From positions 1 to 41,005 of the forward strand of contig JAUWWQ010000038.1 in NCBI GenBank assembly GCA_030616775.1: a DNA stretch of 41,005 bases, written 5' to 3'. This DNA comes from Planctomycetota bacterium. Its GTDB lineage: Bacteria > Planctomycetota > Phycisphaerae > UBA1845. The notes below the pieces were generated by a model, which ran no database searches, was not told the origin of the DNA, and saw nothing but the letters and a program-made list of their open reading frames with translations. Shown one piece after another: positions 13,621-18,336 of this stretch (position 1 is the first letter of the stretch; every line of letters begins with the position of its first letter). A program made the translations under genes and the position numbers.

Positions 13621-13971
13621 CTACTTCTTGTCTACGCCCACGGGCTGATCGTCGGTGATGGTTCGCTGAATGGCCGTCTTGATGAAATTCATCTTCGTGT
13701 TGGTCGATTCGTCGACCTTCAGAATGACTTCGCTGTCCTTTACCGAGACGATTGTCCCGATGACACCGCCGATTGTCAGCACACGATCGTTCTTGGTCAG
13801 GCGGGCGTGCATCTCCTCCCGCTCGCGCTTCTCGCGCTTCTTCTGGCTGCGGGCGCTCAATAGCATGAACACCACCAAAGCCACCAGAAGTGCCGGAAAC
13901 AGAAAAGCCATGGGATTGGGTTGCTGAGGACTCTGAGTCTGTGCGATAAGAGGCATAAGTATGTTCATCAA
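13621..13971 (-). CDS. yajC: Preprotein translocase subunit YajC
   Basis: This 116-aa protein has one transmembrane helix (about 22-40, FLFPALLVALVVFMLL) and then a basic coiled-coil stretch KKREKREREEMHARL. The YajC core follows: KNDRVLTIGGVIGTIVSV, then EVILKVDESTNTKMNFIKTAI. YajC is an accessory of the SecDF part of the Sec translocon in the inner membrane. The gene overlaps the end of tgt by 4 bases (ATGA), so it is translationally coupled; tgt-yajC is a widely conserved order, though secD does not follow here. Confidence 0.95.
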   Translation of the reverse strand: MMNILMPLIAQTQSPQQPNPMAFLFPALLVALVVFMLLSARSQKKREKREREEMHARLTKNDRVLTIGGVIGTIVSVKDSEVILKVDESTNTKMNFIKTAIQRTITDDQPVGVDKK

Positions 13972-15095
13972 GCTTCCTCGGTATCTGGCGTTGAAGCCAC
14001 CATCGACGCGATCGGGTACCTCTCCACGATTGTCGTGAGTCGACCCTCCTGAATCAAATCACGGATATCCGACATAAACCTCTGGTAGAACCGCAGGTTA
14101 TGAATCGAGGTCAGCGTCGGCCCCAGCATCTCGCTGGTGTTGAACAGATGACGAATGTACCCTCTGGAGAATCGTTGGCAAGCCTCGCAATCGCAATCTC
14201 TCTCAAAGGGCTCGGGATCGAGGCGGTATTTCTCATTGCGCATCTTGAGCGGTCCTGAGGCGGTGAACGCATGGCTGTTCCGCCCGTTGCGCGTTGGCAG
14301 CACGCAGTCGAACAGATCGACGCCGGCCAGTACGGCCGCCAGAATGTCACGCGGAGTGCCCACACCCATAAGGTGCCGTGGTCGATCAGCCGGCAGCAGC
14401 GAGGCGACCGGTTCGAGAATCCCCACCATTTCCTCGTGCGACTCGCCCACCGACAGCCCACCGATCGCGTACCCGTCAAACCCGAGCTCGATCAGCGCCG
14501 CTGCACAGCGCCGGCGCTGGCCAAGATCGAGCCCGCCCTGGACGACGCCGAATAGGGCCTGGTCGTTGCGTACGTGGGCGTCCTTGCAGGCCGCGGCCCA
14601 GCGAATCGTCCGATCCACGGCCGTGTGCACCGTCTCCGCGTCGGTCGGCAATGGTGGGCACTGGTCGAAGGCCATGATGATGTCTGCACCCAGTTTGTTC
14701 TGCACCTCCACCGCGATGCGGGGATCCAACCGCATCGGTGTGCCATCCACATGGGACCGAAAATCCACCCCTTCGTCCGTGATGCGATTGATCGCTCCTA
14801 AAGAAAAAACCTGGTACCCGCCGCTGTCCGTCAGAATCGGACCGTCCCAACCCATAAAGCTGTGCAGCCCGCCCAGATCGCGCACAACGTCCGCCGTTGG
14901 CCTGAGCTGGAGGTGGTAGGTGTTGGCCAGGATCATCTGGGCACCCGTGGCGGCTAGCTGGGCGGGCGTGACGCCTTTGACCGACCCCGCCGTCCCGACG
15001 GGCATGAACGCCGGCGTCTCGACGCGACCATGGGGCGTGGTCAGCACCCCTCGCCGGGCCAGACCGTCGGTATGCGTGACTTTGAACGGTAGCAT
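13968..15095 (-). CDS. tgt: tRNA-guanine transglycosylase
   Basis: This 375-aa cytosolic enzyme exchanges the wobble guanine of GUN anticodons for preQ1 in queuosine synthesis. The length matches bacterial Tgt. The active-site region is PILTDSGGYQVFSL with Asp90, and the second catalytic Asp lies in GVDLFDCVLPTRNGR. The zinc site is CDCEACQRF...HLFNTSEMLGP..IHN near the C-terminus. There is no evident ribosome binding site before ATG 15095, while a promoter-like pair lies so close upstream that the transcript may be nearly leaderless. The gene is co-transcribed with yajC. Confidence 0.96.
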   Translation of the reverse strand: MLPFKVTHTDGLARRGVLTTPHGRVETPAFMPVGTAGSVKGVTPAQLAATGAQMILANTYHLQLRPTADVVRDLGGLHSFMGWDGPILTDSGGYQVFSLGAINRITDEGVDFRSHVDGTPMRLDPRIAVEVQNKLGADIIMAFDQCPPLPTDAETVHTAVDRTIRWAAACKDAHVRNDQALFGVVQGGLDLGQRRRCAAALIELGFDGYAIGGLSVGESHEEMVGILEPVASLLPADRPRHLMGVGTPRDILAAVLAGVDLFDCVLPTRNGRNSHAFTASGPLKMRNEKYRLDPEPFERDCDCEACQRFSRGYIRHLFNTSEMLGPTLTSIHNLRFYQRFMSDIRDLIQEGRLTTIVERYPIASMVASTPDTEEA

Positions 15096-15131: not shown

Positions 15132-15222
15132 TGAGCGGCGCGCCGATCCGTTACACTTTGGTCTCCACGCCCAGTATCCCCGCAGACTGATAGCCGGCCC
15201 GGCGATCTCGTGAGCAATCTGT

Positions 15223-15250
15223 TTGAAGTAAACCCCAATCAAGTTATAAG
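15223..15250 (+). promoter_or_regulatory. Candidate sigma-70 promoter of the ATPase/STAS/PIN operon
   Basis: TTGAAG (15223-15228) and TATAAG (15245-15250) are spaced by 16 bases in an AT-richer patch, about 37 bases before the first ATG. GGGAGGG in between serves as ribosome site. Confidence 0.5.
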
Positions 15251-15286
15251 AATACATTCGCCACCAGATGGGGAGGGCGTCGAGAC

Positions 15287-16165
15287 ATGGCTGTGAAACT
15301 CGCGCTGCAACAGATCCGGCATTGCAGAGCTGGGTTCGCCGAGCTCGTCGATCTGGCTGCTCAAGCAGAGAGATGCTTTCTTGAGCAGATCGAGATCGAC
15401 ATGGCTGGCGCCTCTTGGTTCGATGCAGACATGTGTGCGGCTTTCGGGGCGCTCCTCTATCGGTTCGGACACAACTTGAACACGGTTCGTTTGCTCAACA
15501 TCCCCAATCTTGTGGAGCAGATCCTGTCGAAGAACGCGTTCTTGAGCAGCTACGGACGGAAACCGATTCCCGACACCTGGGGCACGACTATCCCCTACCA
15601 ACGGTTTGAGACAAAGGATGAACGCTATTTCGCCAGCTATATCGAGCGCGAACTTGTACAGCGTCCAGAGATTCCAGCGATGTCCCCCAGGCTGCTCAAG
15701 AAATTCCGCGAAAGCATTTTCGAGATCTTCAGTAATGCTGTGATTCACTCCGAGACCGAGTTGGGCATATTCAGCTGTGGACAGTTCTACCCTAAGAAGA
15801 ACCTCCTGGTATTCTCGGTGGCTGATCTCGGGATCGGGATCCCCGGCAATGTGAAGAAGAAGATCGGCAGTCAGCTTCTTCCGGAACGCGCTATCGCCTG
15901 CGCGGTTGATGGTCGCTTCACGACAAAGAGCGGGCCCATTCCCGGCGGCCTCGGTTTGAAGCTCCTGAGCGACTTCATACGGCTGAATAAAGGGGCTTTC
16001 GTCATCGTCTCTGATAAGGGATACTGGGAGCTGAGACGAGGTCAGACGCTTACAGATAAGTTCAGGAATGCGTTCCCGGGAACGGTTGTGACGATCGAGA
16101 TAAACACCGCGGACACTCATTCCTATGCCCTGCGCAGCGAGATCTCACCGTCGGAGGTCTTCTGA
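15287..16165 (+). CDS. GHKL (HATPase) ATP-binding protein with N-terminal STAS-like domain
   Basis: This 292-aa soluble protein has two parts. Residues 33-85 (IEIDMAGASWFDADMCAAFGALL onward) resemble the STAS-like domain often fused to this ATPase family. The C-terminal part is a GHKL ATPase: the N box with Asn150 in EIFSNAVIHS, the G1 box VADLGIGIP (178-186) and the G2 box GGLGLKL (220-226). No phospho-acceptor His domain or receiver is present, so it is not a classical sensor kinase; it resembles anti-sigma/anti-anti-sigma type kinases. It is followed by the STAS-like gene (26-base gap) and then the PIN gene, a likely operon. I infer a partner-switch regulator; the ligand or signal is unknown. 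Confidence 0.82.
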   Translation: MAVKLALQQIRHCRAGFAELVDLAAQAERCFLEQIEIDMAGASWFDADMCAAFGALLYRFGHNLNTVRLLNIPNLVEQILSKNAFLSSYGRKPIPDTWGTTIPYQRFETKDERYFASYIERELVQRPEIPAMSPRLLKKFRESIFEIFSNAVIHSETELGIFSCGQFYPKKNLLVFSVADLGIGIPGNVKKKIGSQLLPERAIACAVDGRFTTKSGPIPGGLGLKLLSDFIRLNKGAFVIVSDKGYWELRRGQTLTDKFRNAFPGTVVTIEINTADTHSYALRSEISPSEVF

Positions 16166-16191
16166 CTTGCCCAGGCGGAAGAGACGGTAAC

Positions 16192-16551
16192 ATGAGTGAT
16201 GCACTAACGATCCAGGTATACGAGGTTGTCGGAAGCGTGCTATGCGTTGCATCGGATGACGGACAGAAGGTCCACGATCGCATCGCGGCGGCGCTGCGCG
16301 AAGGGCGCAACGTGGTCGTCTCGTTCCGAAACGTGAACGGTCTGACGTCTGCGTTCCTGAACGCTGCCATTGGGCAGCTCTACGATTCGTTTTCCGAGGG
16401 CGAGATACGCGCGAAAGTGCGCGTGGAGGACATGGAGCAGGACGACCTGGTACTACTCAAGCGCGTTGTCGAGACGGCCAAGGCGTACTTCAAGGACCCC
16501 GAACGTTTCAGTGATGCCGCGCGTGAGGTGCTGGGCGATGATGACGCGTAA
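16192..16551 (+). CDS. STAS-like DUF4325 protein
   Basis: This is a 119-aa single-domain protein. The segment GRNVVVSFRNVNGLTSAFLN followed by AAIGQLYDSF is typical of DUF4325, a STAS-like fold usually encoded beside GHKL ATPases, where it is thought to be the switch partner. It has no membrane segment or catalytic motif. The acidic C-terminus ends in GDDDA and overlaps the start of the PIN gene by 14 bases, so the two are translationally coupled. Its probable job is to be bound or phosphorylated by the ATPase and so pass a signal on; this is inferred from the family and the context. Confidence 0.8.
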   Translation: MSDALTIQVYEVVGSVLCVASDDGQKVHDRIAAALREGRNVVVSFRNVNGLTSAFLNAAIGQLYDSFSEGEIRAKVRVEDMEQDDLVLLKRVVETAKAYFKDPERFSDAAREVLGDDDA

Positions 16552-17089
16552 CGCCGTACAGAGCATCGACGCGTATCAGTTCAGCAGCACCGACGCCCTG
16601 TTATTCGACGCGAACATCTGGATCTACTTGCATTGTCCGGAGAGCAGCCCGCGAACGAGAGTCGTCGCCTGTTATTCGGGAGCACTCAAGCGGCTTCTGA
16701 GCGCAGAATGCCATATCTTCATCGATGTGCTCGTCCTCTCCGAGTTTGTCAACCGCTATGCCCGGGTCGTACACCAAACAACACCAGCATGGCGGGCACG
16801 GAGATTCAAAGACTGGCGGGACAGCGACGACTTCGGGCGCGTCGCAGGCGCCATCGCCAACGCCTGCCGGAGAATCCTGAAGGTGTGCGAGCCCACAGAG
16901 AGTGGCTTCGAGTCTGTCAATCTGTCGGGCCTGTTGAGCAGTTATGAGGCGGGCCACTCGGATTTTAACGACCTGATGCTCGCCGAACTCTGCAGGGCCA
17001 GAGGGCTGGTCCTCATCACTCACGACGCTGACTTCAGGGGCTCCAACATCACTCTGCTCACGGCCAACCACAGGCTGCTCCGGACCTAG
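16538..17089 (+). CDS. PIN-domain ribonuclease-like protein
   Basis: This 183-aa PIN-fold protein belongs to a family of metal-dependent RNases that includes VapC toxins. The acidic quartet is visible: Asp24 in LLFDANIW, Glu69 in LSEFVNRY, Asp142/Asp145 in HSDFNDLMLAEL, and Asp163/Asp165 in ITHDADF. All catalytic positions appear intact. There is no VapB-like antitoxin next to it. Instead it is coupled, by a 14-base overlap, to the STAS-like gene and through that to a GHKL ATPase. ATG 16538 (or 16541) has GTGAGGTG at good spacing. The arrangement suggests that the RNase is the effector of the partner-switch pair. Confidence 0.82.
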   Translation: MMTRNAVQSIDAYQFSSTDALLFDANIWIYLHCPESSPRTRVVACYSGALKRLLSAECHIFIDVLVLSEFVNRYARVVHQTTPAWRARRFKDWRDSDDFGRVAGAIANACRRILKVCEPTESGFESVNLSGLLSSYEAGHSDFNDLMLAELCRARGLVLITHDADFRGSNITLLTANHRLLRT

Positions 17090-17332
17090 GCACGCGCCCA
17101 GGGGAGTAGCCCTGATTCCAGGTTCGCTCAATGACTTGCAGCGTGCGTGTGCATCGCCGTCGTCGTCGACCACACCCCTGTCAGAACACAGCAGTGGCAA
17201 GGTACGTGGTAACGGGCTTCCCAGTATGCTTGGGAGGTTGTCGTTGCCGAGTGGAGCAGGCGGCGGTAGGATAGGCGGTCCAGGCAGGACACGTACTTCC
17301 AAAGGGCATAAGCCATGAAGCGCGGGGCTTGG

Positions 17333-18217
17333 TCAGTCGAAAAGCTTGTACCGGTAGTGTGGCCGGGCGAAGCCGGCGAATTCGTCAGCCACGAAGTCGT
17401 ACGCACCGCTGTCCCAGGTATCCCCGTAGTGATAGAGGATAGTCTTCTTGCGGACGCTCTCGGGTAGGGTCCGCAATTGGGACAAAGTGGCATGCACCGG
17501 TTCAGTCTGATCTTCGAGCTGGACCTCGTGGAAATTGAGCTTGGCGGTACCCATCATCCGGCCCAGCCCTGTGAGGTCGAAGCGCGTGTCTCCTGAATAG
17601 AGGATGGTGTCCCTGGTCGTGCGGTCGGCAATAAGCAGACCGTGGCTCGGCCAATCATACTCACGTTGCACCTGGATGTGATGAGTTGGGAACATGGTGA
17701 ACTTGTACCGATCCAGCATGGTGAAGCGGTCGGGTTCGCCCTGGCCGGCTGGGTATAGCGCTAGTACTTCAAAGTAGTCCGCCATGGTGGCACGACGGCC
17801 GGTAAGCGCCCCTAGTCCGCCCTTGAGAGAGTGATCCCACAGGTCTGCGAGGACGTCGCTTCCGCCGATGATCTGTGGCTTGAATCCCCGGCCGCTCCCG
17901 GCATCGGCACAATAGTGCATGTTGGTGCCTGCCAGCTCCTCGAGTCCGCCTATATGGTCGCTGTGCTGGTGGGTGATGAAGATGCGGCCGATGGCGGGGT
18001 AGTAAACCATCCCAACGCGGTCCAGGTAGGAGAATCCGGGCACGCCCTTGAGCTGGTGCAGGGCGACAGGACCGGTCGTTCCAAAATCAACCAGCAAAGT
18101 GTCGTCCGGCGCGGCCTGCCGGTCGGGCTGTGCCGACCACGCTTCGATCAACGCGTTCGACTGAAAGTTTCTCTTGGCGTAGGCTGAACCCACACCGAGA
18201 AACGTCAGCGTAAGCAC
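17333..18217 (-). CDS. Metallo-beta-lactamase-fold hydrolase
   Basis: This 294-aa protein has the MBL fold. Its start LTLTFLGVGSAY..NFQSNALIE is the usual first beta-strand and loop of the RNase Z/phosphodiesterase-like branch. The signature HQHSDHIGG gives the zinc ligands (HxHxDH). DGDTRFD-like GDTRFDLTGL and the final YHYGDTWDSG provide the remaining metal ligands. I chose GTG 18217: GGAGAG lies five bases upstream and the conserved fold begins directly after it. A longer frame to GTG 18310 would add a low-complexity tail with no ribosome site. Substrate unknown; a metal-dependent phosphodiester or lactone hydrolase is likely. Confidence 0.82.
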   Translation of the reverse strand: MLTLTFLGVGSAYAKRNFQSNALIEAWSAQPDRQAAPDDTLLVDFGTTGPVALHQLKGVPGFSYLDRVGMVYYPAIGRIFITHQHSDHIGGLEELAGTNMHYCADAGSGRGFKPQIIGGSDVLADLWDHSLKGGLGALTGRRATMADYFEVLALYPAGQGEPDRFTMLDRYKFTMFPTHHIQVQREYDWPSHGLLIADRTTRDTILYSGDTRFDLTGLGRMMGTAKLNFHEVQLEDQTEPVHATLSQLRTLPESVRKKTILYHYGDTWDSGAYDFVADEFAGFARPHYRYKLFD

Positions 18218-18336
18218 GAGAACTCTCCGAACCCCACCAGACCCCGACGGAGTCTCGAGATCCCCGCCAGGGCGCGCCGCAAGGCCCGATGCCTCCGTCG
18301 TCGTCGGCACACTCGCAGCCCGTTAGGTGTAAGCGG

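Follow-up and report, generated by a model that had tools for sequence, protein, structure and literature searches.

The 41,005-nucleotide contig JAUWWQ010000038.1 of a Planctomycetota bacterium (assembly GCA_030616775.1), here referred to as the window, carries on its plus strand a compact operon encoding a kinase-like ATPase, a STAS protein and a PIN-domain ribonuclease (RNase). The trio had been singled out in a preliminary description made from the DNA letters, and all three genes are indeed intact and co-directional, with a complete set of PIN catalytic acids. The features are listed below under the names of the vapKSC system, to which we assign them.

15287-17089, plus strand: three-gene operon, intact and co-directional (kinase-like ATPase, STAS, PIN)
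15287..16165, plus strand: VapK-like kinase gene, 292 amino acids, with a STAS-like domain and a GHKL kinase domain
15416..15418, plus strand: codon of Trp44, a conserved aromatic residue of the STAS-like domain
16192..16551, plus strand: gene for a predicted VapS-like STAS (DUF4325) antitoxin, 119 amino acids, named by homology
16348..16350, plus strand: codon of Ser53, which aligns with phospho-site Ser48 of Escherichia VapS
16541..17089, plus strand: VapC-like PIN ribonuclease toxin gene, 182 amino acids (183 from the alternative start ATG 16538)
16541..16551, plus strand: overlap of vapS and vapC, 11 bases, kept in relatives

The vapKSC operon was described in June 2026 for Escherichia sp. 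E4736, with 289 instances reported and a crystal structure deposited as PDB 9Z7O (Chambers et al., EMBO J 2026; PMC13373217). According to the vapKSC sections of that paper, free VapC halts growth and VapS rescues it, the substitution S48E abolishes rescue, and the VapS-VapC structure together with the rescue assays identifies VapS as antitoxin and direct inhibitor. VapK is thought to sense single-stranded DNA (ssDNA) and then to phosphorylate VapS Ser48, and the operon gives about 2-log protection against phage Bas42, which requires VapC D28, VapS S48 and VapK F54 (PMC13373217). We read the window operon as a kinase-gated VapKSC toxin-antitoxin (defence) system with a probability of about 0.92, on the basis of its gene order, the VapS and VapC homology, a kinase fold like that of SpoIIAB, catalytic and phospho-site residues that are all intact, and recurrence across phyla. 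The "new kind" of toxin or stress system proposed in the preliminary description is accordingly a published one, of which the window operon is a further copy.

The STAS protein gives the strongest link to the characterised system. It matches PF14213 (DUF4325, E 2.4e-17) in Pfam, and among 177,635 PDB sequences the only strong matches of the STAS and PIN family profiles are VapS and VapC of 9Z7O. The STAS-family profile matches Escherichia VapS with E 2.6e-21, and the window sequence alone does so with E 3.3e-14 (56 bits). Window Ser53 faces position 66 of the 9Z7O chain; once the 18-residue tag is subtracted (134 residues in the chain, 116 in the protein), this is Ser48. In complete trios the position is Ser in 65 of 67 cases and Thr in the remaining two. 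As in VapS, there is a single STAS domain, and a C-terminal helix is seen in the model of a homologue (L062). By homology to 9Z7O VapS, the STAS protein is the predicted antitoxin of the operon, the component that the preliminary description had thought missing.

The PIN protein matches PF01850 in Pfam (E 2.1e-9), and its family profile matches Escherichia VapC (E 4.6e-13) as the sole PDB sequence. Its catalytic acids D24, E69, D142, D145, D163 and D165 (numbered from the methionine at 16538) are essentially invariant in relatives, and a weak pairwise alignment sets Asp24 opposite catalytic Asp28 of VapC. VapC toxins were the top structure matches of the STAS-PIN chain model of L062; 9Z7O was not in the Foldseek listing, whose structure library stops at 2026-04-08, possibly before the entry was added.

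In the kinase, alignment and model place an N-terminal STAS-like domain at about residues 1-95, followed by the GHKL domain with its N-box (E146...N150), D180xGxG and GGLGL (220-224) motifs; the N-box, DxGxG and GGxGL patterns are essentially invariant across 63 aligned kinases. The Pfam GHKL match of the window protein stays under the cut-off (E 0.01); the predicted fold of the kinase part of the L021 homologue matches SpoIIAB with Z 14.5 (root-mean-square deviation 2.5 A over 135 residues) and RsbW with Z 11.7. The combination of STAS and GHKL domains with no N-terminal helix-turn-helix (HTH) domain is that of VapK, as judged from the description of VapK. Position 44 is Trp in 59 and Phe in 3 of the 63 kinases, and Trp44 is likely the counterpart of ssDNA-binding Trp68 of CapK and Phe54 of VapK. 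A PADLOC match of the kinase to DrmA was rejected, as it spans the shared ATPase fold only.

Alongside the shared K-S-C gene order, the HTH-free STAS+GHKL kinase, the antitoxin made of one STAS domain with a conserved Ser and a C-terminal extension, and the VapC-like PIN with the same catalytic Asp, there are differences from the Escherichia system. The window proteins are distant in sequence (VapS at 56 bits, PIN significant by profile only), the phospho-site motif is LTSAFLN instead of FASPFFN, and toxicity and phage protection are known for Escherichia, whereas the window copy is known from sequence. A Chloroflexota trio (L131, 97-2058) is of the Escherichia type, with the VapS motif FASPFFN, and forms a bridge between the window family and the characterised system.

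Recurrence was assessed with the STAS gene as sole selection criterion: 84,980 species genomes were scanned, and of 198 relatives 80 were kept. At 71 of these 80 loci kinase, STAS and PIN genes stand together in this order on one strand, and some of the others are cut by contig ends. Because the same order recurs at this frequency, the K-S-C arrangement is far beyond chance; the PIN gene is present at 73 of 80 loci, so that it is not, as the preliminary description had allowed for, usually absent beside the pair. The relatives come from Nitrosomonas, Nitrospira, Poribacteria, Chloroflexi, Latescibacterota, Deltaproteobacteria, Acidobacteria-type bins, Legionella and one Methanothrix bin. The junction of vapS and vapC is conserved as well. 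The 14-base overlap described earlier holds if PIN starts at ATG 16538, but in most relatives the start corresponds to ATG 16541, giving 11 bases; the PIN frame is +1 relative to the STAS frame at 61 of 67 loci, and the conserved overlap suggests translational coupling. No relative was found in the viral contigs searched. A phage-like record from human faeces (MT837343.1:4443-4760, unannotated) encodes a VapS-like protein with 41% identity to the window STAS protein. In one trio (L005, 1000-2545), which adjoins a type I restriction HsdR-like gene, the kinase is cut off by transposase-like sequence and vapC contains a TGA; orphan VapS genes with Ala53 lie beside AAA/OLD-like ATPase genes at L055 and L063, and at L063 a type III methyltransferase-like gene is close by as well.

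Gene losses are informative on how the three proteins relate to each other. In a sample of 84 Poribacteria genomes, 42 have the STAS gene, and at 13 loci VapS and a catalytically complete VapC occur without the kinase (L086, L097, L115, L120, L121, L132, L133, L134, L139, L140, L142, L144, L146). Most of these loci occupy a single place in the chromosome, with an SDR gene on one side and an acetamidase-like gene on the other, while others lie by a PfkB-type gene; both sites hold full trios in other Poribacteria. The phospho-site motif, TSAFLN in the trios, has become TAAFLN, TGAFLS, TTPFLT or TSAFLT in the kinase-free branch, where the median ratios of nonsynonymous to synonymous substitution rates (dN/dS) of 0.13 for VapS and 0.21 for VapC indicate purifying selection. 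Further Poribacteria loci have VapS with a broken VapC or, in several species, VapS without VapC, including VapS alone at the SDR/acetamidase site (L049, L052, L111, L116). A truncated or missing kinase beside intact VapS and VapC is found elsewhere too, with the Ser kept (L059/L066, L085, L099). L099 (1177-2402), in which no kinase was recognised, is a second locus from a Methanothrix bin, the other being the trio L079, and is of putative archaeal origin. The few PIN-centred searches found no locus with VapC and without VapS; L127-L129 gave weak PIN matches, with L127 ending at a contig edge, and do not establish a VapC lacking VapS. When the kinase is lost VapS and VapC stay, and when VapC is lost VapS stays, a pattern that fits VapS as the antitoxin. 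That kinase loss and phospho-site drift occur together agrees with the proposed mechanism, and no significance is claimed for it; since the DNA tree traces it to one or two events, it is not statistically independent evidence.

By homology with the Escherichia system, VapS would at rest be bound to VapC and block its RNase activity. VapK would sense ssDNA arising from DNA damage or phage infection and phosphorylate VapS at Ser53, upon which VapS would release VapC, and the freed toxin would cleave RNA and stop growth. The window pair shares with SpoIIAB/SpoIIAA and RsbW/RsbV the GHKL kinase fold (SpoIIAB Z 14.5) and a conserved acceptor residue on the STAS partner, and the usual partner-switch logic of SpoIIAB/SpoIIAA would have the SpoIIAB-like kinase hold the PIN nuclease, as RsbW holds its sigma factor, with the STAS protein as releasing antagonist. 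However, VapC would then be free at the 13 kinase-free Poribacteria loci and at L059/L066, L085 and L099, the order of loss argues against a kinase that holds VapC, and in Escherichia the crystal structure and rescue assays make VapS the direct inhibitor (PMC13373217), so that this arrangement is very improbable. In the window the third gene codes for an RNase toxin where those switches have a sigma factor, and it is the STAS protein, rather than the kinase, that would hold this third partner. A partner-switch-like kinase-STAS pair controlling an RNase, as the preliminary description had envisaged, has been demonstrated for the homologous Escherichia operon (PMC13373217); its view of how the parts cooperate was largely right, yet the system had been published before and does contain an antitoxin.

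Apart from vapKSC itself, the characterised kinase-STAS pair closest to this one is CapK-CapS (PMC13373217), in which a STAS+GHKL kinase is likewise paired with a STAS substrate carrying a conserved serine, and the window pair might similarly be a transcriptional switch with the PIN gene merely its target. CapK, however, has an extra HTH domain and CapS a winged HTH (wHTH) DNA-binding domain; the 119-residue window STAS protein has no wHTH and the kinase no N-terminal HTH, both proteins being too short for these additions, which makes a transcriptional switch more improbable still. It could also be argued that an unrelated PIN gene, of housekeeping function or a relic of an ordinary VapBC module, adjoins the regulatory pair by accident. 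PIN genes are widespread and frequently mobile. Accidental adjacency, the least probable of these explanations, is refuted by the ordered trio at 71 of 80 loci selected by STAS only and by the overlap frame kept in 61 of 67. With type II VapBC systems the window operon shares the PIN-domain VapC fold, VapC toxins being the best matches of the predicted L062 model. In contrast to VapBC, the gene upstream of vapC encodes by Pfam a DUF4325 STAS protein and not a VapB-type DNA-binding antitoxin, and a kinase is present.

Several points weigh against the assignment to VapKSC. Antitoxin action, phosphorylation, ssDNA sensing and phage protection are carried over from the Escherichia homologue, and even there VapK activity lacks an in vitro demonstration in the vapKSC sections of PMC13373217. 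The pairwise match of the window PIN to VapC is weak (E 0.052) and becomes significant with the family profile only. The AlphaFold chains, which read through in-frame stops (L021, L062), have middling predicted template modelling scores of 0.67 and 0.68, and for that reason do not decide interfaces or docking. Finally, the six flanking genes that were scanned include none recognised as a known defence gene; the two PADLOC matches among them are weak and concern a radical SAM protein and Tgt.

The operon is flanked on either side by a gene on the opposite strand.

13968-15095, minus strand: tgt
17333-18310, minus strand: metallo-beta-lactamase-fold gene (Pfam Anti-Pycsar Apyc1, E 3.5e-25)

As the Apyc1-matching gene occurs in 14 of 25 relatives, it probably encodes a chromosomal phosphodiesterase rather than an anti-defence function. 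Only one of 51 genomes of the window's own family carries the operon. In a sister species (G856) both flanks of the operon region (window 15195-17299) are found, each 91% identical, at two unlinked places, and that assembly lacks the operon, which makes it an accessory islet located where synteny breaks. A consensus scan for sigma-70-type promoters gave 0 against 0.5 expected, which leaves the promoter-like pair reported to precede it unsupported.

These observations widen the range of a recently described toxin-antitoxin defence system, gated by a kinase, to the window's lineage and numerous phyla. Only for the kinase-free branch was no description found in the vapKSC results, discussion and methods of PMC13373217. 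One lineage within the Poribacteria may possibly, though we put this tentatively and at somewhat less than even odds, have given rise to a kinase-free two-gene derivative in which the phospho-site is not kept and VapS acts as a conventional antitoxin under other control, such as turnover, and later to orphan VapS that might serve as a free anti-toxin. The branch offers a natural test of the mechanism: with the kinase gone, the serine that it would phosphorylate is no longer kept there, while antitoxin and toxin persist together.
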